DNA of 48,152 bases from a virus. Of the stretch, positions 4,021 to 47,517 are shown one piece after another. The stretch is taken from IMG/VR virus record IMGVR_UViG_3300017770_000026, positions 1 through 48,152 of that record; one strand, 5' to 3'. The notes beneath the pieces were generated by a model. That model ran no database searches and was not told where the DNA came from. It worked only from the letters and a program-made list of their open reading frames with translations. Position numbers and translations under genes: made by a program. Position 1 is the stretch's first letter. Each line of letters opens with the position of its first letter.

Positions 4021-7000
4021 TTATTTTAAAGGTTGTGTTTTAAATTTTCTTGTTCTAAATCCACCAGTAGCTTTTTTCTTTTGTTTTTCATCTTTAATAC
4101 CAAGCTGCCAGTCTTGCCAACCAAGCCCCATGCCTATTCGCTGCCAGTACTCATTGTCTTGATCTAAGGCGCCTTGCATATTGTCTAGCTTAATTAAAAG
4201 TCTGTCTAACGGTAAGTTTGTAAGTCCTTCTGTAACTCTAGCAGCACCTCTAATAGCTGGGTTATCTAAACTAACACCTTTTTCTAACGCAGCATCAGTA
4301 GTTGTAAAGCTAAATGATTTTAACCCACCAGCAACTTTTCTATATTTAGACCCAAGCGGTGGAGCTATATTTAATAACTGTATTGCAGCTTTTTCAAACT
4401 CTGGTTTTTTCTTTTGCTTTTCAGTATATATCTTAATAGCAGCGTCTTTGACAGCAGCAAAAACAGCAGGTCCAACGCCCATACCTCTAAGAACTGAATT
4501 AGCCATACCATTGGCTAAGTTTATAGATTTTTCTTCTGTAACTTCAAGATCATCGTCAAAAGCAGTAGCAAAAACCGCTTGCTGTAAAGTGTTAAACATT
4601 ACGTTTTGTGCAAAAGTATAGTAAACTATCTTAGATATATTAGTCTTTGCATCTCCTCGGCCATTTTTAAGGTCTAGAGCAGCTTTTTTTATTATTCTAG
4701 CATACTGAGCAGGTGTATTGGCAAAAGCGAGCACGTGTCTACCTAAACCACTAGCTTGTTCTTGGCTAATTTTATCTGGTCTACTAGACTGCTGAGACTC
4801 TTCTGATATTTCTCTAAAGTCTTGAAAAGCTTTTCTTTCAGCTTGTTCTTTTGTATAAATTTTATTACCATCAACATCAGTTTCTTTTTCGTATGTTTTT
4901 ATTCTATTACGATAAAATGTAGATCCACCAGCTGATATAGCAAAACTATCAGCTATTTGCGTAGGAGTAAAACCAAGCTCTAAAAGTCTGGCTGTAACAC
5001 CTGATATGCCACCTTTTCTAGCAGCAGCAGAAATATCAGCTTCAACAACGTTTATTCTAAGCCCAGATCTTCTATCTTTTAAAAAGTCTGAGTTATATAG
5101 TTTTGAAAAATCTTTCCAGTATTGTTTTTGATTAGCAAAAGCTTTACCCGCTGCAAAAATATTATTATCACCAAAATTTACAAAGTTAAGTGATGATATT
5201 GTTTGTAGCACAGCAGATCTACTATTTAAAAACATTATAGAACCAGTAGCTTGAGCAATAAAGTCTGTAAATTTACTTGTTATTGTATCACCTGAAAAAA
5301 CTCTGTTTCTACCGGTTTTCATACGTGTAAGCATATTTTTCATTGCATCAACATATGGTTTACCGTAAGCAGCTTGAAGCTTGTTTAAGTTTTCTGCAGA
5401 AAATATAACGTCTACATTGTTTTGCCAGGCTTCTAAGTACTTAGATCTTTTAGTAGTATTAAGCCCTTGCAATATATCAGTTCCTATACTACCGCTTAGC
5501 CAATTATTGCTAGGTTTAATATAACCATCTCCTTTATTTATATTTATAAGTTGATTACCAAAAGTTATAAGCTCTTTATTTTCTTTAACATGCAATAATA
5601 ACTTTTTAAGTTGACTTTCAGATAAACCTGGTATTTCCATACCTTGCTTGGTCCACACGTAAGCTCTAACAGCTTGCTCTGTAGTAAAGCCAGTTTCACC
5701 AACTTTTCTTTTTAGTGGCGGAGTTTTTAATAAACCTTTAACACCTCTTTCACCTGGAACTCTTAAATTACGAACTAAAAACTTATAATCATTTAATAAA
5801 GATATTCTATCAGCACTTATATTAGCCATAGCTTTAGCAAAAGGATCTAATAAGTTTCTTTTGTAAAACGCCATATCAGCGTCACCTTGTCTACCTTTGC
5901 CTAGTGTTTTGTAAAGTAAACCTACAAAATCTTCTGCTTTTGGTCTTATAAATATGTCAAAACGACCTTTACCAGCACCTTCCATTATAGCTTCAGTTTC
6001 TGAAACTACACGTTCAGCTGATATTTTACTTTTAGTAGATCTTTCAATTATTTTATTAAAGTTTTTATTGATATCGTTTAATACTTCAACTGTATTTGTT
6101 TTTTTAGCTTCTTGTATTTGTTTAGACGCTAGTGTTTGAGATTTAATAGACTCTAGAGTTGTTTTAATTGTTTTAGGATTACTAAGATTTACTCCAGAGT
6201 TTAAGTCAGATTTAATAAGTCTAGGAAAAGCTCTAGTAGAAAGTTTATAAATACCCGTGCCTGTACCTTTCTTTTTTATTTGCTGCCTGTCAAATCTAAT
6301 CTCAAGCATAGCCTCACCTTGAAGCTCAGGCATGTTAGGAACATTTAATGGATTTTTACCCATGTAAAAAACACCTTTTTTATTTAAATCAATATAAAAA
6401 ACACCTTTTTTATTATAAAGAGAACTTATTATATCAGCAGTAGTGCTTATGTTTATATTAGTAGCAGCCTGTAAGCCTTTGTCTTTAAGATGTGTAAAAA
6501 CTTGTTCGTTAGCTTGCAAAAATCCGTCAACTATTTCTGCTTTAAAACCATTTTCTTTAGCAAATTTTAAACCTTCTTTGTTAAAATCTTCTATAGCTTT
6601 TTTATATTCCGGAGAACTTAATTGTTTTTTAACCTCAGATTTAAGCTCGCTTTCAACTAAGTTGTTTTTAATCATTTCTTGCTGAACAACAAGTTTTTGT
6701 TTTTCGTTAAGATTTCTATAGTCTTGTAAATAACTAGGCTTATTTGCCATTTCATTTTTAAATAATCTTCTAGCAATTACATCTGCCATGCCGGTATTTT
6801 CAAAAGCTTTAGTATTAAACATACTAACAGCTTCTAAGGCATCTGTAGTAAACTGTATATCTCCTTCTATATTTTTTATGGTAAAGCTGCTCATTTGGGC
6901 GCTATCGTTAAGCTTAAGCTCTATGTTCATTTCTACAGCTTCTTTTCCTTCACCAAATTTTATAGTTAAATCACCAGCGCCCTTATTACTGTAACCACCT

Positions 7001-10000
7001 CTAGCTTCAACAGTAACGCCTTTTATACCTGCTGCTTTTATAACTTTTTGAGTAAACTTTTCATATTTTATACCACCATCAGATTTAACTGCTAAATCTT
7101 GAAGCACTCCTACTTGCCATAAGTTTGAGTCAAAATACCTTTGCAAGGCACTTCTTACTTCAGCGTTTTTAACTTTATTTAAAGCAGTACTAGAATCACC
7201 TTTTATATAACCCTGTAAAACGTTATTAAAATCTTTGTCAACTCTTTTACCGCCAACAACAGCTTGAATTCTTTTTACTTCAGCGGTTCCAAGCCTGTCT
7301 ATTGCTGTTTTTACATTTTCAGATATTTTAGGGGAAGCCATGGTAACAGGTTTACCGGCTGCTAAATCAGCTAATAGTTGCTCGTTTTTATCAAAACCAC
7401 CTTGCTCTTTAACAACTTTATCTCTGTAGTATTTATTAGATATAGATCCGCTGATCATATCTATAAAACCTTTTAAATTTTGACCAATAGGTTTGTTGTA
7501 TATGTTGGCTTCTCCTTTTTTAGTAACTCCAAAGTTTTCTCTTATAAAAGACTTGTGAAGCTCCGGCGTAATATTTAAAAGCTCTGGTTTTAATTCTCTA
7601 ACTTCAACTTGAGAAGTTTGACCTTTAGACCTAACGCCTGTTTTATTCATAAATAAATTCAGCATGTTGTTTTTAATACCAGTAGCAATACCGTAAGTAT
7701 CTCTAGAAACATCTATTTTTTTAGCTACAGTTTCTCCAGGAGGTACAAGCTCTGCAACTTCACTAGAAACATTTTTAGGATTAATTATTTTCATTAACCT
7801 TTTAAACTTAGAGTAATCTTGTATTACATCTTGTATTTTTCTAGCCTCAGATCCAAAACCTTCAGAAGTTAAATTAGCAGAAACCCTTACTAGTTTACCT
7901 TTACTGTCTCTAACAGGCCTACCGTCTTTGTCGTGTTTTATATCAGTTGCTTTCTGTGGATCAATACCAAAAAACTCTTTAGCCACTCTACCACCTATTT
8001 GCTCTTTAATACCTCTGTAAGTTTTAGTAGTAACTTCTTCTAAAGTTGTTACTTTATCTAAATTTAACACTTCTGTTTGTACTCTTTCTTGCTTAACAGT
8101 ACCATCTGGATTTTTAGTTTCTACAACTTCAAATCCTTTAGTGCCTAGCTCTTTTACAGGATCAATTACTTTTTTTACAGCCTCTTCTTGTATTTTATTA
8201 TTAGCATCTATGCTTTCTGTAATTTCAGCATCAACAGTTTTACCCGCGGCGTCAGATAGTTCTTTAGTAAACTCTTTAGCTACTTTTCCTTCTAATATAC
8301 CTGGTATTCTTTTAGGTAAATTGTCATATAAATATTTATTAAACTGAACGCCTGAGCTTAGTTGATACGTGTTCATTAAGTTACTTAATTCAATATTTAA
8401 ATCAGCTTTAAAATCTTCTCTAGTGTAAGCTTGTTCTTCCACTGATTTATAGTATCTATTAGCTAAAACATCTATATACTTTTCATAGTAAGGTGCTACT
8501 TTTCTGTAATCTTCTGTTTTTAAAGATCTTCTTTGTGCAAGTTCTGCAGGAGTTATATTTCCTTCATTTTTTTTAAAATCTAACTCTTCTATTTTAATTA
8601 AATTTTCAGGCTTTCTACTTGTAAATATTTTTTGTATTTCGTTAGAGTTTTTCTTTAAAGCTTCTAGCTGCGTACTAGCTTTTACAGTAGCTTCTTCGCT
8701 ACTTATCTCTTTTGCAGAATTAGCAAGATCTTTTAGTTTTATACCATCTATAATTATTTCTTCAAAAGCTTTAAATTTATTTTTAATAGCGGCACTTGAT
8801 CCACCTTCAGCAACTTTATTTACACTATATAAAAATTCTAAAAGCTCTGCTCCAGTTTTAAAATTCTTTTTATTAGTATAATCTAATCCTACTCTATTAG
8901 CTATATTCAAAGTAGATCTTTTTAAGTTATTAATAAGACCTTTTTCTAGTAATAATTCTCTATATTTAGGTTGAGATAAAAACTCAACAACGTTCATAAC
9001 GTATTCCTCAGGTGTTGTAGCAGGTTTTTCTTTATAAGCTTCTTTTATAGCTTGCTCAAAACTTAAACCTGTTTTTTCACCTATATTAAAAGTTCTATCT
9101 TTTAAAGCGTTATTAACATCTTCTTGTATTCTTTCTTTAAAAATACTAGCAGCTTTTGTGTTACTATTAAAAGCAGCTTTCATAAACACATGACCAACCT
9201 CTTGAGCTAAAACACCTGGCTTATATTGATTTATATCTACTCTAATAGTTCTATTTACAGGATCGAACTCAGCTTTATTGCCTTCAGATAAACCGCCTTG
9301 TTGTATATTTAGCTTTAAGTTTTTCATAACTCCGGCTTCCATCAAATTGTCAAAAGACTTGCTTATTCTTCGCTCTGCCGCTGCTACATTTGCTTCGTAC
9401 TTGTTTATAAATCTTTGAGCTTCCTTTATATCACCACGCGTTGATTCTGGATTTTGTATTATTTTTCTCAAAGCATTAACTTGCTGTTGTTGCTCTCCAA
9501 TATTTAAATCATTAAAAGGTTTATCGGCGTAAGATAAATCTCTTTGTAAATCCTGTGCTAAAGCCATTTTTTTATTAAGCTCAGCGCCTTTATACTCTCC
9601 AGCTATAATATTAGACTCAATTTTTTCAAGAAGTTGTCTTCTTCTTCTTATGCTATAAAAGTCTTTTGCTTTAGCTCTTTGCGCTCCTAGCAAACCAAAA
9701 ACAACACCATCAACTAACATTTGTTCTGTAGCTTCGTCCATGTCGCCATAGAGCTCATGCATTGACTTTTTAAAGTCTTTGCTACCTATTAAATCTTCAA
9801 ATAGAGCTTCTGTTATTTTAGCAGTCTCAGCACCACCTACACCACCTATAGCACCACCAGCATATTTTTCTAAAACATTGTTAACAACAGCGGCTTTGCC
9901 TGTAAATTTAGGTATGAACTTACCAGCTAATTTACCACCTAAGAAAAATCCAGCACCACCTAAAGTTTTAGCTTCACCTGCTGTTACGGCTTCAAATTTA

Positions 10001-11784
10001 GCTTCTTCCAATAAAGCTCCAAAAACGTTGGCCATTAACTTGTCTCTTCTTGAAGCTACTGTTTGTGCCGTAGATAAAAGCTTTCCGCCTTTTATTGCTC
10101 CTGATCCAGATTTTGCTAATTCAGCTATATACCTAGTAATTCCAGCAGCTCCAGCTACTTTATTAGCAACAGCAAATTTAGCAAGCTCAGGTACAAAATA
10201 ACCCACGCCTTCAGTAACTTTCATACCAAAACCTCTTTCAAAGTTTTCTTCTTGCTCTTTAGTAAGTTCTATATTAGCGTTGCTAAAAAGAGTTTGTAAT
10301 TGATCAAGTTCTTTACGCTTTGTTGTACCTATTTTAGATATTGCATCTTCACCAAAAGTTGCTTCTAAGACAGTTTCTCCAAATCTTTCTACATAGTCAC
10401 TAGCTTTTATTTTTATTGAAGCAGGATCAACGTTAAGCATGTAAGAACTTGTTAAAGCTTCTTTTTGTAAACCTAATTGTAGTCTTTCTTTTGCTATTGA
10501 CTTAAGTTCATCACCAAGCACAGGCACAATACCGCCTTCTGGATTATATATAGAACTTTGTAATAACTCTTTTTGATCTTGATAGTTTAATAAATCTTGA
10601 TATCTAACATCTTTAAATACGCCGTCTTGCGCTTTATAACCTATTTGACCTAAAGCAACAGCAAAAGTACCATCAGTTGGTTTTAAATCTATGGTTTTTA
10701 ATAAATCTTTTTGAATATCTCTAGAATCTAAGTTATGTCTAAAAAACTCTCTTTCTAAAAGCTCTAAACTAAGTGAGTTATATTCTTGTTCTAATCTTTC
10801 AACTTCTTCTTTTTGGTCGTTAACATCAGAAGACTCAACAGCTCCTGTTAAATCTAACTTAGCACCTGTTGTCGGATCAAATAAATACGAGTATTGTTTT
10901 AAATTTTCACCATATTTAGTTTGTTGCATTTTTTCAAAAGCATCATTTATTAAAGGTTTTAACCTTATTAAATTATTTTGAGCAGCTTTTGCGTCTCCGT
11001 ATTTTAATTGTTTTTGATATTTTCTAGCTTCCTGTATTAATAAAGCATATGCTTTTTGATCTTTATTTAAATCTTGCGCAAAGTCTTCAAAACCTTGATC
11101 TATTGTTGGTTGATATATACCTTCTTCTCTAGCAATATTTACTTGTTTATTTTTTTCTGCATTAGAAGAATCTTTTTCTTTTTTTATTACTTTGCTAAGT
11201 TCTTTTTCTAATATATTATCTATAGTAAAATCAAACGGCAAATCTTGTAATGCATAAACGTCTCTGTAGTTTTCTTTTACTTTTTTTATAAGCTCATCTT
11301 CAACTCCGTTATTAATAAGATCTTGAATAGTTTTTCCTTCAACACCTAATCTATATATGCCATCATTAGCTAAAACACCTTTTACAGTTGATCTAAAATT
11401 TTGTATTAAAGGTTTTTGTTTGTCAATCTGTTTTATTTTAATCTCAGGTTTTGGAACTTCAGTTCTAGATTCTATACTTTTAATATCAGCAACTTGTTGC
11501 TCAGAAGCAGGCTTTCTTTTTATTTTTTCATCTATATCATTTAATAGAGAATCCAAAGAAGTATCTACCTGCGGTAATTCCGTATCTTCTGGTGCTGCAA
11601 TTTCCGACGGCGCATCCGCACCCGCTACACCGTCTGTTGTCTTTACTGGTGGATCAATATTATCTTCTTGTTCACCATTTACAAGAGTTACTTTTTTATC
11701 TTTAAAATCGTTTAAAAAGTCAGCTTCACGTGCTTCAGAAACGTTGTAAAGTTGTCCTTCTATTTCGTATTGCTTAACAGCCAT
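4021..11784 (-). CDS. Giant internal virion / polyvalent protein
   Basis: 2587 residues, the largest product in the window. It is probably packaged in the capsid and delivered with the DNA, as large polyvalent proteins are. The N-terminal ~600 residues are charged and helical. Gly/Ala-rich hydrophobic segments around residues 510-680 could interact with membranes. A zincin-like helix at 861-865 reads Gln-Glu-Val-Gly-His, so the first His of HExxH is replaced by Gln. A stretch with Glu1593, Asp1605 and Glu1622-x-Lys1624 fits the PD-(D/E)xK nuclease spacing. The C-terminal third is helical and mixed. I see no DxDxD-type RNA polymerase motif. Its position after the tail-tip and internal proteins supports a virion role; the domain calls are inference. 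Confidence 0.8.
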   Translation of the reverse strand: MAVKQYEIEGQLYNVSEAREADFLNDFKDKKVTLVNGEQEDNIDPPVKTTDGVAGADAPSEIAAPEDTELPQVDTSLDSLLNDIDEKIKRKPASEQQVADIKSIESRTEVPKPEIKIKQIDKQKPLIQNFRSTVKGVLANDGIYRLGVEGKTIQDLINNGVEDELIKKVKENYRDVYALQDLPFDFTIDNILEKELSKVIKKEKDSSNAEKNKQVNIAREEGIYQPTIDQGFEDFAQDLNKDQKAYALLIQEARKYQKQLKYGDAKAAQNNLIRLKPLINDAFEKMQQTKYGENLKQYSYLFDPTTGAKLDLTGAVESSDVNDQKEEVERLEQEYNSLSLELLEREFFRHNLDSRDIQKDLLKTIDLKPTDGTFAVALGQIGYKAQDGVFKDVRYQDLLNYQDQKELLQSSIYNPEGGIVPVLGDELKSIAKERLQLGLQKEALTSSYMLNVDPASIKIKASDYVERFGETVLEATFGEDAISKIGTTKRKELDQLQTLFSNANIELTKEQEENFERGFGMKVTEGVGYFVPELAKFAVANKVAGAAGITRYIAELAKSGSGAIKGGKLLSTAQTVASRRDKLMANVFGALLEEAKFEAVTAGEAKTLGGAGFFLGGKLAGKFIPKFTGKAAVVNNVLEKYAGGAIGGVGGAETAKITEALFEDLIGSKDFKKSMHELYGDMDEATEQMLVDGVVFGLLGAQRAKAKDFYSIRRRRQLLEKIESNIIAGEYKGAELNKKMALAQDLQRDLSYADKPFNDLNIGEQQQQVNALRKIIQNPESTRGDIKEAQRFINKYEANVAAAERRISKSFDNLMEAGVMKNLKLNIQQGGLSEGNKAEFDPVNRTIRVDINQYKPGVLAQEVGHVFMKAAFNSNTKAASIFKERIQEDVNNALKDRTFNIGEKTGLSFEQAIKEAYKEKPATTPEEYVMNVVEFLSQPKYRELLLEKGLINNLKRSTLNIANRVGLDYTNKKNFKTGAELLEFLYSVNKVAEGGSSAAIKNKFKAFEEIIIDGIKLKDLANSAKEISSEEATVKASTQLEALKKNSNEIQKIFTSRKPENLIKIEELDFKKNEGNITPAELAQRRSLKTEDYRKVAPYYEKYIDVLANRYYKSVEEQAYTREDFKADLNIELSNLMNTYQLSSGVQFNKYLYDNLPKRIPGILEGKVAKEFTKELSDAAGKTVDAEITESIDANNKIQEEAVKKVIDPVKELGTKGFEVVETKNPDGTVKQERVQTEVLNLDKVTTLEEVTTKTYRGIKEQIGGRVAKEFFGIDPQKATDIKHDKDGRPVRDSKGKLVRVSANLTSEGFGSEARKIQDVIQDYSKFKRLMKIINPKNVSSEVAELVPPGETVAKKIDVSRDTYGIATGIKNNMLNLFMNKTGVRSKGQTSQVEVRELKPELLNITPELHKSFIRENFGVTKKGEANIYNKPIGQNLKGFIDMISGSISNKYYRDKVVKEQGGFDKNEQLLADLAAGKPVTMASPKISENVKTAIDRLGTAEVKRIQAVVGGKRVDKDFNNVLQGYIKGDSSTALNKVKNAEVRSALQRYFDSNLWQVGVLQDLAVKSDGGIKYEKFTQKVIKAAGIKGVTVEARGGYSNKGAGDLTIKFGEGKEAVEMNIELKLNDSAQMSSFTIKNIEGDIQFTTDALEAVSMFNTKAFENTGMADVIARRLFKNEMANKPSYLQDYRNLNEKQKLVVQQEMIKNNLVESELKSEVKKQLSSPEYKKAIEDFNKEGLKFAKENGFKAEIVDGFLQANEQVFTHLKDKGLQAATNINISTTADIISSLYNKKGVFYIDLNKKGVFYMGKNPLNVPNMPELQGEAMLEIRFDRQQIKKKGTGTGIYKLSTRAFPRLIKSDLNSGVNLSNPKTIKTTLESIKSQTLASKQIQEAKKTNTVEVLNDINKNFNKIIERSTKSKISAERVVSETEAIMEGAGKGRFDIFIRPKAEDFVGLLYKTLGKGRQGDADMAFYKRNLLDPFAKAMANISADRISLLNDYKFLVRNLRVPGERGVKGLLKTPPLKRKVGETGFTTEQAVRAYVWTKQGMEIPGLSESQLKKLLLHVKENKELITFGNQLININKGDGYIKPSNNWLSGSIGTDILQGLNTTKRSKYLEAWQNNVDVIFSAENLNKLQAAYGKPYVDAMKNMLTRMKTGRNRVFSGDTITSKFTDFIAQATGSIMFLNSRSAVLQTISSLNFVNFGDNNIFAAGKAFANQKQYWKDFSKLYNSDFLKDRRSGLRINVVEADISAAARKGGISGVTARLLELGFTPTQIADSFAISAGGSTFYRNRIKTYEKETDVDGNKIYTKEQAERKAFQDFREISEESQQSSRPDKISQEQASGLGRHVLAFANTPAQYARIIKKAALDLKNGRGDAKTNISKIVYYTFAQNVMFNTLQQAVFATAFDDDLEVTEEKSINLANGMANSVLRGMGVGPAVFAAVKDAAIKIYTEKQKKKPEFEKAAIQLLNIAPPLGSKYRKVAGGLKSFSFTTTDAALEKGVSLDNPAIRGAARVTEGLTNLPLDRLLIKLDNMQGALDQDNEYWQRIGMGLGWQDWQLGIKDEKQKKKATGGFRTRKFKTQPLK

Positions 11785-23032: not shown

Positions 23033-23848
23033 CTATTTTAGCTTTTTTTCTATTGATTTGAAAATTTCTACTCCTTCGTCTGTTTTCAAGAAAGCAGCAA
23101 AAGCAGAGTATGGATTTTCATCAAAAGGCACGGTCATTAATTTTCTATCATTTGAACCCCATGCAAAAGTTCTTTGATCTTGTGATAACTTAATAATACC
23201 CATCTCAGCAGCTTTAATTGCTAAGTTTCTAAGTACTACGTTTTCATCGTTTACTAAGTCCAAAAATAATATTGGATTATTTCTAGCAAACATATATAAG
23301 TCTCTCTTAAGCTCAGCAGAACTCATTTTATCTACAGCAGAGCCTAGTTCAACTCTAAGTATTGCTTCTGCTTGATCAACTTCTATAGACATAGCTGTAT
23401 TTAAAGCTTCCATTTCAGTTTCAATGCTTACTAAATCGTCTTTAGCTTCAGCAACCTGATCTTGTTCTTTATATACATAATCTTTTCTAGGGTGATATAA
23501 ACTTAAAAGCTTTTGTAAAGGTTGATTTGTTTTTGGAACATAAAGACCTCCATTTTCAAATATAATATGACCAAGTATTGCTTTGTTATCTTGTTCGTCT
23601 ACAAAGCAAGATTTTTGATTACTTGCATATCTTATTTCTCTGTTATAACCTTTTTCTTCATCAAACCATAACAATGGTTTTCTAGGTGTAGATTTTGATG
23701 CTAAAACATAAGTTAAAGGATCTCCTCTGCCTACTAAAAAGTATCTTCTATCTTTAATTTCCCAATTTGTTTTTGATGGTGCAGTTTTAACTGCTACCGG
23801 TTGAGGTGCAACCTCAATATTTTCTACTGCTTTAGCTTTTTTAGCCAT
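23033..23848 (-). CDS. Structural-module protein of unknown function
   Basis: 271 residues, no family recognised with certainty. The N-terminus is Ala/Val/Pro-rich and probably flexible (1-30). A beta-rich domain follows (30-115), then acidic helices (120-185) and an Ala/Leu-rich helical C-terminal half with Asn-Pro-Ile-Leu-Phe-Leu and Ala-Phe-Ala-Ala-Phe-Leu motifs. No membrane or signal segments are present. It is the first gene after a strong terminator and one copy of the repeated palindrome, so it probably starts its own transcription unit, and it ends before a hairpin. Its place between capsid and adaptor genes suggests a head-completion or connector role. Confidence 0.6.
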   Translation of the reverse strand: MAKKAKAVENIEVAPQPVAVKTAPSKTNWEIKDRRYFLVGRGDPLTYVLASKSTPRKPLLWFDEEKGYNREIRYASNQKSCFVDEQDNKAILGHIIFENGGLYVPKTNQPLQKLLSLYHPRKDYVYKEQDQVAEAKDDLVSIETEMEALNTAMSIEVDQAEAILRVELGSAVDKMSSAELKRDLYMFARNNPILFLDLVNDENVVLRNLAIKAAEMGIIKLSQDQRTFAWGSNDRKLMTVPFDENPYSAFAAFLKTDEGVEIFKSIEKKLK

Positions 23849-23879
23849 AATATAATATAATTAAATAGTTTGTAAAGTA

Positions 23880-36707: not shown

Positions 36708-36719
36708 TTTGTTTTTATT

Positions 36720-44454: not shown

Positions 44455-44531
44455 AATGCGTCTTTTTGTTTATATTCCTATTAATCACATAGTTATTTTA
44501 AGTTTTAAGGTACTCATATTAACCTATAGTG

Positions 44532-44574
44532 TGACAATTGCCCCTTACTAGTATATTTTAACAGGCTAATGTCA
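44532..44574. promoter_or_regulatory. Palindromic element, copy B
   Basis: 43 bp imperfect inverted repeat with left end TGACAATTGCCCC and right end ACAGGCTAATGTCA. It lies upstream of the first late gene (minus strand) and of the early genes (+ strand), so it could control both. On the + strand GTGACA and TATTTT are 17 bases apart. Confidence 0.65.
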
Positions 44575-44761
44575 TAGTTTTTAAAAATATTGTTATAAAT
44601 AGGGGGTAAAAGTGCTATGCCTTAACCTATTGACTACCAGCCGGTTACGTAAACGCCTTTTTTAGCCCCATGGCCCCCCTTATTTTTAGATTTTGCTGCA
44701 TAATTTTTACCTTTTGGCCCCCGGGCTAGGCCCCCAGCCTGCCCCTATATACTAACTACTG

Positions 44762-44796
44762 CACAAACTTAATACGTAGCGACTTAGATAATATAA
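44762..44796 (+). promoter_or_regulatory. Bipartite promoter-like motif P1
   Basis: CACAAACTTAATACG, 9 bases, AGATAATATAA; 33 bases before the ATG at 44830. One of five copies with identical internal spacing; the GATAAT core resembles a -10 box. Confidence 0.7.
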
Positions 44797-44829
44797 ATGT
44801 AAATAACTAATAAAATAAAACTTAATACC

Positions 44830-44910
44830 ATGAGAAAATTTATACACAATATTGTTCTAACAATTTCAGAAATCAAAGTTGGAAATATGTATGATGCTTT
44901 CACAAAGTAA
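44830..44910 (+). CDS. 26-residue microprotein (paralogue of 45734)
   Basis: ATG at 44830, stop at 44908. The product begins Met-Arg-Lys-Phe-Ile-His-Asn-Ile-Val, which matches the start of the gene at 45734 in eight of nine residues. Its 3' end runs into promoter-like motif P2. The conserved start and placement behind P1 argue that it is translated. It may be a leader peptide or a small early protein; function unknown. Confidence 0.5.
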   Translation: MRKFIHNIVLTISEIKVGNMYDAFTK

Positions 44911-44935
44911 ATACGAAGTAATAAAGATAATATAA
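44901..44935 (+). promoter_or_regulatory. Bipartite promoter-like motif P2
   Basis: CACAAAGTAAATACG, 9 bases, AGATAATATAA; overlaps the last codons of the 26-residue gene and lies 30 bases before the ATG at 44966. Confidence 0.7.
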
Positions 44936-44965
44936 TAAAATAATAATAACTTAATAATTAATACT

Positions 44966-45193
44966 ATGCAAAATTTAAAATCAAAAAGATTCGTTATCAG
45001 AAAATCTTTAATCGGAAAAAATCAAATCATTGAAGTAACATTTAAAAGTGGAAAAACTTTTACATATAATCATGATAAAGTATATGACATAATGAAAAGT
45101 AAACTAGAAACAATGAACTGTTTTGAAAAATACAAATCATATACTTCAAGCACTTCAGTGCCAGTAATACTACGCGACAAAGAAGTCGTTTAG
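44966..45193 (+). CDS. 75-residue early protein, paralogue 1
   Basis: 75 residues, near-identical in layout to the protein at 45421: Ser-Lys-Arg-Phe-Val, Lys-Ser-Leu-Ile-Gly-Lys-Asn-Gln, then Tyr-Asn-His-Asp-Lys-Val-Tyr-Asp-Ile-Met-Lys-Ser-Lys-Leu-Glu, and a Lys-Ser-Tyr-Thr-Ser-Ser-Thr-Ser motif near the C-terminus. It is a small alpha/beta protein, basic, with one cysteine. Family not recognised. Behind promoter-like motif P2 and just before palindrome copy C. Conservation between the two copies, mostly in amino acids with many synonymous differences, is good evidence that it is translated. Confidence 0.8.
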   Translation: MQNLKSKRFVIRKSLIGKNQIIEVTFKSGKTFTYNHDKVYDIMKSKLETMNCFEKYKSYTSSTSVPVILRDKEVV

Positions 45194-45208
45194 TATTTAC
45201 TAAAAGTG

Positions 45209-45252
45209 TGACAATAGCCTGCTACTATTATATACTTAGTAGGCTTATGTCA
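45209..45252. promoter_or_regulatory. Palindromic element, copy C
   Basis: 44 bp imperfect inverted repeat with ends TGACAATAGCCTG and GTAGGCTTATGTCA; with flanks it reads GTGACA to TGTCAC (45208-45253). It starts 15 bases after the stop of the first 75-residue gene and is followed by AGTTTTAAA, so on the + strand it could also act as a terminator-like hairpin. GTGACA and TATACT are 17 bases apart on the + strand. Confidence 0.65.
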
Positions 45253-45265
45253 CAGTTTTAAAGCC

Positions 45266-45332
45266 TGACTTTGAAATAGAGTCGGAAGAGTAGACTCCGC
45301 CCTACGCGGAAGTCAAAGCACGCGCTTGCGTG
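45266..45332 (+). ncRNA. Multi-hairpin structured RNA candidate
   Basis: An outer 6 bp stem (TGACTT 45266-45271 with AAGTCA 45310-45315) encloses two hairpins: GAGTC/GACTC with a 9-base loop and CCGC/GCGG with a CCTAC loop. A third hairpin follows directly, CACGC/GCGTG with a GCTT loop (45319-45332). The block is GC-rich in an AT-rich surrounding and has no open reading frame of note. It lies between palindrome copy C and motif P3, so it could be a small RNA or the structured end of a transcript. Confidence 0.45.
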
Positions 45333-45343
45333 TATAGCACTCG

Positions 45344-45378
45344 CACAAATTAAATACGGTCGCTTACAGATAATATAA
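45344..45378 (+). promoter_or_regulatory. Bipartite promoter-like motif P3
   Basis: CACAAATTAAATACG, 9 bases, AGATAATATAA; 42 bases before the ATG at 45421. Confidence 0.7.
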
Positions 45379-45420
45379 ATGTAACTAAAAAATAATAATA
45401 ATAACTTAAAAATAATAACT

Positions 45421-45648
45421 ATGCAAAATTTAATTTCAAAGCGCTTCGTAGTAAGAAAGTCGCTAATCGGTAAAAATCAAGTAATTGAAGTCACTTTCAA
45501 AAACGGTAAACAAGTAAAGTACAATCACGATAAAGTGTATGATATAATGAAAAGCAAGCTCGAGTCAATGCCTTGCTTCGAAAAGTACAAAAGTTACACA
45601 AGTAGCACTTCATTACCTGTAATATTGAGAGATAAAGTAATACTTTAA
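45421..45648 (+). CDS. 75-residue early protein, paralogue 2
   Basis: 75 residues, same length as the protein at 44966 and differing at roughly one residue in six, mostly conservative (Ile/Val, Lys/Thr/Val). The DNA differs more than the protein and is visibly less AT-rich, which indicates selection on the protein. Behind motif P3; followed by a hairpin at 45663. A small alpha/beta protein of unknown family. Two maintained copies suggest a dosage need or slightly different targets, for example early host takeover; that is speculation. Confidence 0.8.
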   Translation: MQNLISKRFVVRKSLIGKNQVIEVTFKNGKQVKYNHDKVYDIMKSKLESMPCFEKYKSYTSSTSLPVILRDKVIL

Positions 45649-45662
45649 GCACTTGTACACAT

Positions 45663-45692
45663 AGAGTGGTAGTGCAATACACCACCGCTCTT
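45663..45692 (+). terminator. Possible terminator after the second 75-residue gene
   Basis: A hairpin with AGA and GTGGT pairing to ACCAC and TCT, interrupted by a 3-base CGC bulge, with a 10-base loop, followed by TTTT. It lies 14 bases after the stop at 45648. The bulge makes it weaker than the terminator at 1002. Confidence 0.4.
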
Positions 45693-45733
45693 TTACACAC
45701 TAAAACAAATATACACCTTTAAAACTAATTAAA

Positions 45734-45844
45734 ATGAGAAAATTCATTCACACTATTGTATTCAAAATCAAGAACTTAAAGCTTTCTGACTTCAAAATTC
45801 AAGTAGAGCTAGGTAGTGCACCTGACGAGACTACTTGGAGGTAA
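45734..45844 (+). CDS. 36-residue microprotein (paralogue of 44830)
   Basis: ATG at 45734, stop at 45842. It begins Met-Arg-Lys-Phe-Ile-His-Thr-Ile-Val and continues with a Lys/Leu/Phe-rich amphipathic stretch and an acidic end (Pro-Asp-Glu-Thr-Thr-Trp-Arg). The shared start with the 26-residue gene is the evidence for translation. No copy of the bipartite motif lies directly upstream, so it is probably read through from P3. Its stop is followed at once by P4. Confidence 0.5.
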   Translation: MRKFIHTIVFKIKNLKLSDFKIQVELGSAPDETTWR

Positions 45845-45879
45845 CACAAATTTAATACGAAAATAGTAAGATAATATAA
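45845..45879 (+). promoter_or_regulatory. Bipartite promoter-like motif P4
   Basis: CACAAATTTAATACG, 9 bases, AGATAATATAA; 28 bases before the ATG at 45908. Confidence 0.7.
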
Positions 45880-45907
45880 TAAAATAATAACTAATAAATT
45901 AATAACT

Positions 45908-46102
45908 ATGCAACTAAACTTATCACAAATAGAAAATATGGAGTTCGAAGGAGTAGACTTCTCTGACTATCCAGACTTCGTAGACGCTTTCTTAGTATCA
46001 GCAGATATAGATGGCAGAGAACTAACAGAAGAAGAGGTAGATTACCTCAACGATGAACACTACGAATTTGTAAACGAGTCAGTATTCAGCTCAATATTCT
46101 AA
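45908..46102 (+). CDS. Small acidic early protein
   Basis: 64 residues, highly acidic. The order Leu-Ser-Gln-Ile-Glu-Asn, Phe-Glu-Gly-Val-Asp-Phe-Ser-Asp-Tyr-Pro-Asp-Phe-Val-Asp-Ala-Phe, Asp-Gly-Arg-Glu-Leu-Thr-Glu-Glu-Glu resembles a small protein I recall from many phages, often next to early genes. Function unknown; its charge would suit a DNA-mimic or binding protein, which is speculation. It is behind motif P4 and before the tRNA-like element. Confidence 0.75.
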   Translation: MQLNLSQIENMEFEGVDFSDYPDFVDAFLVSADIDGRELTEEEVDYLNDEHYEFVNESVFSSIF

Positions 46103-46107
46103 AAACC

Positions 46108-46222
46108 GGAGTGAATGGCTCGGCAGTAAATCGTGGCGTACTTAATATAGATGAAAGACTCTATAGCGCTAGTAGGTAAATCGCGCACGTGTGTGAGGGA
46201 AGTTCGATTCTTCCACACTCCA
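46108..46222 (+). ncRNA. tRNA-like RNA of unusual length
   Basis: The 3' part is tRNA-like: a T arm with 5 bp stem GGAAG/CTTCC and loop TTCGATT (46198-46214), then an acceptor strand ACACTCC and discriminator A (46222). The 5' strand GGAGTGA at 46108 pairs with six of seven acceptor bases. Between them are a weak D-like 3 bp hairpin, a 6 bp hairpin with 8-base loop (46146-46165) and a GCGC/GCGC hairpin with 13-base loop (46166-46186). This resembles a tRNA with a long variable arm, but 115 bases is too long and I cannot assign an anticodon. CCA is not encoded. Confidence 0.45.
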
Positions 46223-46238
46223 CTAATATTAAATAACT

Positions 46239-46463
46239 ATGAGAATAATTAAACACTTCAATCCACACTTTCCAGATAAAGATATCTACAAGTGTACTAT
46301 AGACAATATCACCCAATATGGTGACTTACAAACTGTCACTGAATTTAGAGATGACAGGCTAAATAACTCTGATTACTACAAAGAGTTACAACAACTTCAT
46401 GATGAAGGGTGTAGACAATACTACAAATCTAAATCAACATTTAACAACTATACAGGTGACTAA
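46239..46463 (+). CDS. Small hypothetical protein
   Basis: 74 residues, no family recognised. His/Asp/Tyr-rich, hydrophilic, with a beta-like front (Ile-Ile-Lys-His-Phe-Asn-Pro-His-Phe) and a helix Tyr-Tyr-Lys-Glu-Leu-Gln-Gln-Leu-His-Asp-Glu-Gly. It starts 17 bases after the tRNA-like element and is followed by the next gene with one base between stop and ATG. Confidence 0.6.
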   Translation: MRIIKHFNPHFPDKDIYKCTIDNITQYGDLQTVTEFRDDRLNNSDYYKELQQLHDEGCRQYYKSKSTFNNYTGD

Positions 46464-46464
46464 T

Positions 46465-46632
46465 ATGAAATATATAACAATACTAGATTTCTCAATGGGA
46501 CATGTGCACCAATATGAAATACAAGAAGACCAATATGAATCAACAGAAAGCTTAGAATCATTCATATGTGACAAGGGTTTTAACCTTGGTAACATTGAGT
46601 GGATGAGTCACTATGATAAAAAAATATATTAA
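46465..46632 (+). CDS. Small acidic hypothetical protein
   Basis: 55 residues from the ATG at 46465, one base after the previous stop. Earlier in-frame starts would overlap the previous gene and are less likely. The product starts with a beta-like Lys-Tyr-Ile-Thr-Ile-Leu-Asp-Phe and is Glu/Ser/Tyr-rich after that, with a Tyr-Glu-Ile-Gln-Glu-Asp motif. No family recognised. Confidence 0.6.
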   Translation: MKYITILDFSMGHVHQYEIQEDQYESTESLESFICDKGFNLGNIEWMSHYDKKIY

Positions 46633-46634
46633 CT

Positions 46635-46775
46635 ATGCAATTTATACAAATAACTAACAATAAAGAGATAGATATGACTTCTCTTATACTTAAACAAATA
46701 CAAGGTGAAATCACAAGAGATGAAGTCTTACAAGTAATTAATGATAATATAGTAAAAAATTCAGATGAGATATAA
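46635..46775 (+). CDS. 46-residue hypothetical protein
   Basis: ATG at 46635, two bases after the previous stop; stop at 46773. The product is helical and mixed in charge (Leu-Ile-Leu-Lys-Gln-Ile-Gln-Gly-Glu-Ile, then Val-Leu-Gln-Val-Ile-Asn-Asp-Asn-Ile). It overlaps the next gene by 11 bases. Coding status rests on the exact packing between neighbouring small genes. Confidence 0.5.
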   Translation: MQFIQITNNKEIDMTSLILKQIQGEITRDEVLQVINDNIVKNSDEI

Positions 46776-46917
46776 TATAATATGGAATAGCAGCGGTGGA
46801 CAGTACCCAGACTTTGAGGTGGTAGATACAGCGGACAATAGAATTGAAGCAATAAGACTAGTTAAAGAATACCAACTAGCTTTTAAATCTAATAAAATAA
46901 CATTCAAAAGAATATGA
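46765..46917 (+). CDS. 50-residue hypothetical protein
   Basis: ATG at 46765 inside the end of the previous gene; TGA at 46915 overlapping the next ATG (ATGA). The product has Ile-Ile-Trp-Asn-Ser-Ser-Gly-Gly-Gln-Tyr-Pro-Asp-Phe-Glu-Val-Val and a helix Arg-Ile-Glu-Ala-Ile-Arg-Leu-Val-Lys-Glu-Tyr-Gln. It looks like a small beta-alpha folded unit. No family recognised. Confidence 0.55.
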   Translation: MRYNIIWNSSGGQYPDFEVVDTADNRIEAIRLVKEYQLAFKSNKITFKRI

Positions 46918-47153
46918 AGAAAAATATAATTAAAACCATAATAATAGTAGGTGCATGCGCTACTTCCTACACAGTAAGTAATAATATAGCACAAGAGATC
47001 GCTGCATCATCATTCGAAGCAGGTAAAGAAGCTAAGTACAATGAGATCAAGCAAAGAGCTGAAGACATTAATCAGTATGGCGAAGGTTATTTCACATCAC
47101 AAGATGTTGAAGAGATCTTAGAAGGTTACTATGACGACGAAGAAGGTCTCTAA
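46914..47153 (+). CDS. Small membrane-anchored or secreted acidic protein
   Basis: 79 residues. The first 26 residues have the form of a signal anchor: Met-Lys-Lys-Asn, then Ile-Ile-Lys-Thr-Ile-Ile-Ile-Val-Gly-Ala-Cys-Ala-Thr. The cysteine at 15 could also be a lipobox-like position, but the surrounding residues are not typical. The remainder is acidic and helical, ending Asp-Asp-Glu-Glu. Its ATG overlaps the previous stop. A role at the host inner membrane is likely; the family is not recognised. Confidence 0.65.
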   Translation: MKKNIIKTIIIVGACATSYTVSNNIAQEIAASSFEAGKEAKYNEIKQRAEDINQYGEGYFTSQDVEEILEGYYDDEEGL

Positions 47154-47324
47154 ATGCAAGTAATGATAGTCAATGGTACAAGATACCTTATCAACACATC
47201 GACGCCTGATGGCGGGGATTCTGCCTGCGAGTACATATTAAAGTATTATGACCTCAATGCGATCATAGAATTTGATAGTGCAAAAGCAGATGATTACAAA
47301 CAAAATACAATAACTATTGGATAA
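47154..47324 (+). CDS. 56-residue hypothetical protein
   Basis: ATG at 47154 directly after the previous stop; TAA at 47322. The product begins with a beta-like Met-Gln-Val-Met-Ile-Val-Asn-Gly-Thr-Arg-Tyr-Leu-Ile and has a Ser-Ala-Cys-Glu-Tyr-Ile-Leu-Lys-Tyr-Tyr helix. Its last codons coincide with promoter-like motif P5. No family recognised. Confidence 0.55.
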   Translation: MQVMIVNGTRYLINTSTPDGGDSACEYILKYYDLNAIIEFDSAKADDYKQNTITIG

Positions 47325-47329
47325 TATAA
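47295..47329 (+). promoter_or_regulatory. Bipartite promoter-like motif P5 (diverged)
   Basis: TACAAACAAAATACA, 9 bases, GGATAATATAA. It matches the other four copies at most positions and keeps exactly the same spacing; 11 bases before the ATG at 47341. Being inside the end of a coding region, it is less certain. Confidence 0.5.
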
Positions 47330-47340
47330 TAAACAAAACT

Positions 47341-47517
47341 ATGCAACAAATAAAATTCTTATCAAACAATCAAATATTACTTAATAACCAACTTTATCAA
47401 GGTTATAATATCGGCGAGTTACCAAACACCTTTGGTTTTATATACAATGAAGACAAAGATCAAGACGGTATTAGCGAATGGTTTAACTACAAAGGTCTTA
47501 CTTATGTCGCCAAGTAA
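47341..47517 (+). CDS. 58-residue hypothetical protein
   Basis: Start at the ATG at 47341; a TTG eight codons earlier is in frame but lies in motif P5. The product is Asn/Gln-rich in front and has a Tyr-Asn-Glu-Asp-Lys-Asp-Gln-Asp-Gly-Ile-Ser-Glu stretch that resembles a calcium-binding turn, then Trp-Phe-Asn-Tyr-Lys-Gly. No family recognised. Confidence 0.55.
   Translation: MQQIKFLSNNQILLNNQLYQGYNIGELPNTFGFIYNEDKDQDGISEWFNYKGLTYVAK

Follow-up and report, generated by a model that had tools for sequence, protein, structure and literature searches.

A repeated motif that is probably a phage-specific sigma-70-type promoter in uncultivated marine Bacteroidota phages

In the virus record IMGVR_UViG_3300017770_000026, of which the whole 48,152-base stretch was analysed (the window), a bipartite motif with fixed spacing occurs in five copies, all on the + strand and each ahead of a small gene. 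We take it, with near certainty, to be a promoter that is confined to a large group of uncultivated marine Bacteroidota phages. We further consider it quite probable that it is a phage-specific promoter of the sigma-70 type, read by the host core RNA polymerase together with a sigma factor encoded by the phages themselves.

Conservation of the motif

A sequence-only reading of the window had described five copies at one spacing, and this was borne out, with the coordinates, the + strand and the identity of the 11-mer as it had claimed. Four copies (44762, 44901, 45344 and 45845) read CACAAA-n-(T/A)(T/A)AATACG, then 9 bases, then AGATAATATAA, the 11-mer being identical in all four; the fifth, at 47295, reads TACAAACAAAATACA-N9-GGATAATATAA and, diverged as that reading had said, keeps the spacing of the others. 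The predicted interval of 11-42 bases to an ATG also agrees with the distances from block end to ATG, which are 33, 30, 42, 28 and 11 bases for copies 1 to 5. When up to 3 mismatches were allowed, the core pattern gave 6 matches in the window, namely the five copies and one poor - strand match at 36715, against 0.59 expected and a maximum of 4 in 100 dinucleotide shuffles. Copy 5 overlaps the end of the upstream open reading frame (ORF), whose stop codon TAA lies inside GGATAA, and the same form, flanks included, is found again in another phage (L324); because of this overlap and recurrence, it is a variant and not a decayed site.

The exact 26-base pattern is present in at least 119 IMG/VR stretches. 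At 2 mismatches or fewer, the motif was found in 36 of the 39 records searched, typically with 4-9 copies each and nearly all on one strand, and the reversed pattern gave near 0 in the same 39 records; the three records with 0 copies were MW202828, phi14:2 and elemo. In the form tACAAAnTAAATACGA-N8-nGATAATA, the motif is common to a clade of uncultivated 60-71 kb Bacteroidota podoviruses, with about 6-7 copies per genome, and a TerL relative was present in 39 of 42 records. The full motif had no exact match in 84,980 prokaryote species genomes (257 Gb), and a literature search found no published description of it. An ORF starting with ATG lies within 170 bases of 305 of the 320 distinct copies. 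The copies avoid ORFs of 60 amino acids (aa) or more, 16 of the 320 falling inside such an ORF on the same strand, compared with 46% of random positions.

Co-occurrence with a phage sigma factor

The five long relatives that were fetched (68-71 kb) encode a sigma-70-family protein of 250-252 aa (about 251). Its membership of the family follows from the presence of both region 2 and region 4, for which the protein of relative G003 gave Pfam matches over the cut-offs (1.7e-5 and 3.6e-7, respectively). The protein also matched phrog_351 (1.4e-21) and NCBIfam TIGR02937 (59.9 bits, cut-off 42.9). An AlphaFold model of it had a pLDDT of 79, and the Foldseek matches listed were all sigma factors or initiation complexes, with sigma-A chains at about 1e-6; the whole-chain TM was low, the domains being differently arranged. 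It falls outside the FliA/sigma-28 group, with a FliA family score of 46.4 bits for a cut-off of 189.6. Region 2.4 reads KRI[KR]GxIRR, in which G and R, both invariant, take the place of Q437 and T440 of RpoD, and this arginine plausibly contacts the G at -12. A protein of this kind would be expected to bind core RNA polymerase and to set its choice of promoter. Close upstream of the sigma gene, a protein of 204-207 aa is encoded in 5 of the 5 long relatives inspected, with a helix-turn-helix (HTH) match in G003.

The sigma gene was found in 24 motif contigs, as part of the + strand block and 5.4-10.9 kb downstream of the first copy; where a motif contig without it was measured, 0.5-5.7 kb of sequence followed the first copy. 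Approached from the other side, the best 80 of at least 534 sigma-bearing IMG/VR stretches, a choice that favours close sigma relatives, included 43 loci whose upstream sequence spans 8 kb or more, and the motif stands on the sigma strand in 42 of these 43. Such company fits the earlier suggestion of a phage-specific promoter served by a phage-encoded factor. At the loci found through sigma, 390 copies share the strand of the sigma gene and 12 are on the other one, which excludes the scatter in all directions that the sequence-only reading had named as refuting it. The exception, L332, has a variant in five copies, in which ACAA and GATAATA are kept one base closer together, AATACGA is degraded and the +1 purine is kept. 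Two phages, L307 and L358, have a motif copy whose predicted +1 is the first base of the sigma gene. The sigma gene is absent from the seven relatives searched for it, MW202828, phi14:2, elemo, Panino, phi13:2, phi38:1 and Gundel, where elemo and Gundel gave partial region-4-like matches in other proteins; the motif search covered the first three of these seven, all without the motif. As it stands, the co-occurrence speaks for linkage, not causation.

Promoter geometry and leaderless starts

The geometry was read from 351 copies in loci that had been found via the sigma protein alone and not via the motif. The conserved columns are ACAAA (75-95%), a T at -30, AATACGA (91-100%) and GATAATA (97-100%), followed by A/T-rich sequence, where the figures for AATACG and GATAAT are partly forced by picking copies with at most 1 mismatch over these two blocks, and those for ACAAA, the A after AATACG, the A after GATAAT and the +1 purine are free of that selection. 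The first base of the supposed spacer is A in 91% of copies, so of the 9-base variable spacer that had been described, the fixed spacing stands and the truly variable gap shrinks to 8 bases. The base just before GATAATA is variable, A or G. In 82 of 82 left-block copies, GATAATA came next at one and the same spacing, and the offset from ACAAA to GATAATA was 24 in 244 copies and occurred at most 9 times at any other true spacing; the matches at offset 20 that were inspected were ACAAACAAA, the same copies counted twice. The consensus has a high A/T content, and little weight should be given to an isolated weak match.

A purine stands 12 bases past the G of GATAAT in 98% of copies overall, and in 273 of the 278 copies whose ATG lies elsewhere. 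Taking this purine as +1 places ACAAA at -36 to -32, AATACGA at -28 to -22 and GATAAT at -12 to -7. With the start point predicted in this way, the motif has the layout of a sigma-70-type promoter, for which the -10 element is expected some 7 bases ahead of a start at a purine and the -35 element 16-19 bases further upstream, and ACAAA and GATAAT would occupy the normal contact positions of sigma regions 4 and 2. The predicted start lies 3 bases after AGATAATATAA and not 5-10 bases after it, as had been expected. The view that the motif is unlike the host TTTG/TAnnTTTG type held up, as the consensus of the 351 copies has neither of the Bacteroidota sigma-A boxes (TAnnTTTG at -7, TTG at -33).

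The start codon falls exactly at the predicted +1 in 62 of 340 copies, and at any other column in 15 or fewer. Rough clustering sorts these 62 copies into about 24 gene families. In the set found through the motif, the ATG is at +1 in 48 of 305 copies, among them a primase/helicase gene and a thymidylate-synthase-like gene. As an ATG edge shared by unrelated genes at one column is most readily accounted for by transcription that begins at that column, the 16-18% of copies with the A of the start codon at +1 seem to give rise to leaderless mRNAs. This predicted share compares with leaderless transcripts making up 5.5% of mRNAs in Flavobacterium psychrophilum (PMC9723704).

Genome context

The window opens on the tail end of a ribonucleotide reductase gene, recognised by similarity to genes of the relatives G019 and G003, and ends 3.4 kb past the first motif copy; it is therefore an incomplete genome. 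Near 44.4 kb the genes diverge, with a - strand late block (portal, TerL, GroEL and virion proteins) running leftwards and small + strand genes running rightwards, and the motif copies sit to the right of this point (Table 1). The TerL of the window is 65% identical to that of MW202828, 45% to those of the Flavobacterium elemo phages, 41% to that of Maribacter phage Panino and 31-38% to those of Cellulophaga phi13:2/phi38:1 and Tenacibaculum Gundel, with a remote match only to crAss-like phi14:2. Hosts were sought via TerL in the genome collection, where the scan with the full motif had given no match, and contigs bearing TerL were mostly in Bacteroidota metagenome-assembled genome (MAG) bins, with some obvious mis-bins. 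Because of these bins and the TerL relatives, the hosts are probably Bacteroidota. An assignment to Crassvirales was rejected, as the nearest TerL proteins are those of elemo, Pachyviridae and Pervagoviridae phages and phi14:2 is remote, and so was a promoter for a Crassvirales or crAss-like virion RNA polymerase, no window protein having DFDxD.

Table 1. Motif copies and the reading frames that follow them in the window
Feature	Positions	Strand	Details
Putative promoter, copy 1	44762..44796	+	ACAAA 44763-44767; AATACG 44771-44776; GATAATA 44787-44793; predicted +1 = G 44799
26-aa ORF after copy 1	44830..44910	+	stop codon inside copy 2 (from the sequence)
Putative promoter, copy 2	44901..44935	+	predicted +1 = A 44938
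75-aa gene after copy 2	44966..45193	+	paralogue of 45421-45648; no Pfam family above cut-off
Putative promoter, copy 3	45344..45378	+	predicted +1 = G 45381
75-aa gene after copy 3	45421..45648	+	no Pfam family
Putative promoter, copy 4	45845..45879	+	predicted +1 = A 45882
Acidic 64-aa protein gene after copy 4	45908..46102	+	no Pfam family
Putative promoter, copy 5	47295..47329	+	overlaps end of ORF 47154-47324; predicted +1 = A 47332; same form in L324
58-aa gene after copy 5	47341..47517	+	no Pfam family

The two adjacent 75-aa paralogues have one promoter copy each, and a relative of them follows a motif copy in G003 (56546-56776). A hairpin, TGTGACAATAGCC...GGCTTATGTCACAGTTTT, lies at 45206-45258 (-27.1 kcal/mol and z -6.0 for 45200-45265), with a weaker copy at 44531-44582, and a related sequence, GTGACATTAGCC...GTCATAC, stands upstream of the - strand gene ending at 23848; these are candidate terminators or a candidate regulator site. 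The GC-richer segment 46103-46222 ends in AGTTCGATTCTTCCACACTCCA, which resembles the 3' half of a tRNA, but ARAGORN predicted none in the window; several motif copies of other phages come directly after tRNA-like ends.

On the late side, a 2587-aa virion-type protein (4021-11784, - strand) matched no Pfam or PHROG family and no polymerase family, and several relatives encode giant proteins of 2592-3710 aa at the corresponding position. Next to the capsid gene, AACTATTTAATTATATTATATTATG is conserved directly before the start codon of a gene, at 23849-23871 in the window and in the orthologous gaps of G017, G019 and G024; it is possibly a late promoter, which was not seen at other late genes. 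Finally, the 129537-base record G013 has two TerL, two sigma genes and 17 motif copies, and probably represents two related phage genomes joined in one assembly.

Discussion

What the sequences themselves support is the conservation of the motif, its geometry, its strand, its place before genes and its co-occurrence with sigma, and from these we infer binding, the point of transcription start, the timing (early or middle), the dependence on sigma and the use of the host core enzyme. The pathway that we envision starts with the phage sigma (about 251 aa, regions 2 and 4) joining the host core RNA polymerase, upon which region 2 would recognise GATAAT at -12 to -7 and region 4 ACAAA at -36 to -32, and the AATACGA block at -28 to -22 would be contacted by an extra sigma surface or by a phage co-activator. 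The RNA would start at the purine 12 bases past the G of GATAAT, which in about one copy in six would be the A of the start codon, yielding a leaderless mRNA. The small takeover-type genes beside the late/early divergence would be driven as a block by these promoters, many of them single, with read-through into the ligase, recombination (Erf, exonuclease), helicase and sigma genes. The sigma gene could be transcribed by such read-through or directly, as from its own motif +1 in L307 and L358, which would amount to positive feedback, and the first sigma might be carried in the virion or come from read-through from an unrecognised host promoter.

Several points weigh against this interpretation. 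It is drawn from sequence throughout. The window ends before its own sigma gene, so the sigma of this phage is deduced from its relatives; and the co-occurrence sets one clade against outgroups, such that shared ancestry could produce it without function. In 11 of 340 copies, the ATG comes before the predicted +1, and AATACGA at -28 to -22 lies outside the usual base contacts of sigma domains. If sigma is made from the motif promoters, another starter of the cascade is needed, and host-type TTG-N17-21-TAnnTTTG sites showed no excess in the phages. A home-made expectation-maximisation search of upstream regions for a late-strand promoter motif gave no clear signal above shuffles, a weak negative given that the + strand motif itself emerged from this method in 3 of 6 sets; as the late promoter was not found, sigma could serve late genes via a motif that was missed.

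That last possibility belongs to the alternative that survives best, in which the copies are early promoters read by the unmodified host holoenzyme, with the housekeeping sigma-A or a host alternative sigma, and the phage sigma is reserved for late genes. Genes adjoining the divergence are usually immediate-early, the phage sigma needs expression of its own, and phages such as T4 have strong consensus promoters on their early genes. Nevertheless, we regard this alternative as unlikely: the flavobacterial sigma-A box TAnnTTTG (-12 to -5) is absent from the motif, the full motif is absent from the 84,980 species genomes, and no late-strand motif was found that would give the phage sigma other work. 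Host sigma-A alone is unlikely because the boxes differ and because related phages of the same phylum, which have no sigma, are without the motif wherever they were searched for it.

Less likely still is an arrangement like that of T4 MotA, where a phage activator on AATACGA/ACAAA would recruit a holoenzyme reading GATAAT. The conserved upstream block spans 16 bases at rigid spacing, and the 204-207 aa protein close upstream of sigma would be a candidate for such an activator; yet the phage sigma already accounts for the -10 and -35 positions, and L332 loses AATACGA and keeps ACAA and GATAATA. No MotA relative was seen, though no search aimed at MotA relatives was made. As an addition to sigma, a MotA-like activator for the AATACGA block is possible. 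A T7-type promoter for a phage single-subunit RNA polymerase, with AATACGA at T7 -16 to -10 and the G of GATAAT as +1, draws on a seven-base identity with the T7 promoter at the matching distance from G. It was rejected as very improbable, since PF00940 is absent from the five long relatives and from a wider set, with the T7 and N4 controls positive, since it leaves the sharp edge of purine and ATG at column 28 without explanation, and since L332 loses AATACGA and keeps the rest. It is equally hard to credit that the motif is an operator, replication or processing element, for which its multiple copies, two parts and fixed spacing might speak, in view of the strict strand bias, the place before genes, the purine and ATG at fixed distance and the non-palindromic halves.

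With a phage sigma reading the motif as the preferred interpretation, a bolder proposal, which we advance tentatively and would not yet call probable, is that of a three-part promoter, in which a divergent phage sigma, or sigma with a phage HTH partner, reads not just the -35 and -10 elements but also the extra, rigidly placed block at -28 to -22. One such promoter in six would start transcription on the start codon, making leaderless mRNA a systematic gene-expression strategy of a major clade of uncultivated marine phages. The sigma and its motif would provide a rule of transcription control that applies to hundreds of uncultivated phages whose hosts are abundant marine Bacteroidota (IMG/VR has at least 534 stretches with the sigma); with one sigma family and one sharply defined promoter, start points and operons should become predictable in every such genome. 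The pair, bypassing the odd sigma-A of the Bacteroidota, could also serve for orthogonal expression in these bacteria, and the leaderless starts would tie translation to promoter position in an unusual way, in hosts that lack Shine-Dalgarno sequences.

Among known systems, T7-type promoters share AATACGA followed by G at the T7 distance, but the start predicted here is 12 bases further on, and the motif falls outside that class, no cognate single-subunit RNA polymerase having been found in the relatives searched. T4 middle (MotA/AsiA) promoters likewise combine a conserved box between -35 and -20 with a -10 element, although T4 itself makes no sigma for middle genes. With the sigma-A promoters of flavobacteria and other Bacteroidota, which have TAnnTTTG at -12 to -5 (PMC9723704), the motif presumably has the host transcription machinery in common. 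Sigma-28 (FliA) promoters read TAAAGTTT-n11-GCCGATAA, the -10 element being GCCGATAA (PMC2859248). The likeness there lies in GATAA at -10 and in a G replacing RpoD Q437 in region 2.4 (RIRGA in FliA, KRIKGA here), whereas in the phages the -35 element is ACAAA at a longer spacing, no GCC precedes GATAA and the AATACGA block is extra. Phage sigma factors with cognate promoters include gp28 and gp34 of the Bacillus subtilis phage SPO1 and gp55 of T4. The motif differs from theirs in its sequence, its three parts at rigid spacing, its Bacteroidota hosts, its frequent predicted leaderless starts and its place in a block of small genes and not before late genes; what it would share with them is the redirection, proposed here, of the host RNA polymerase by a phage sigma to a class of promoters found only in the phage.

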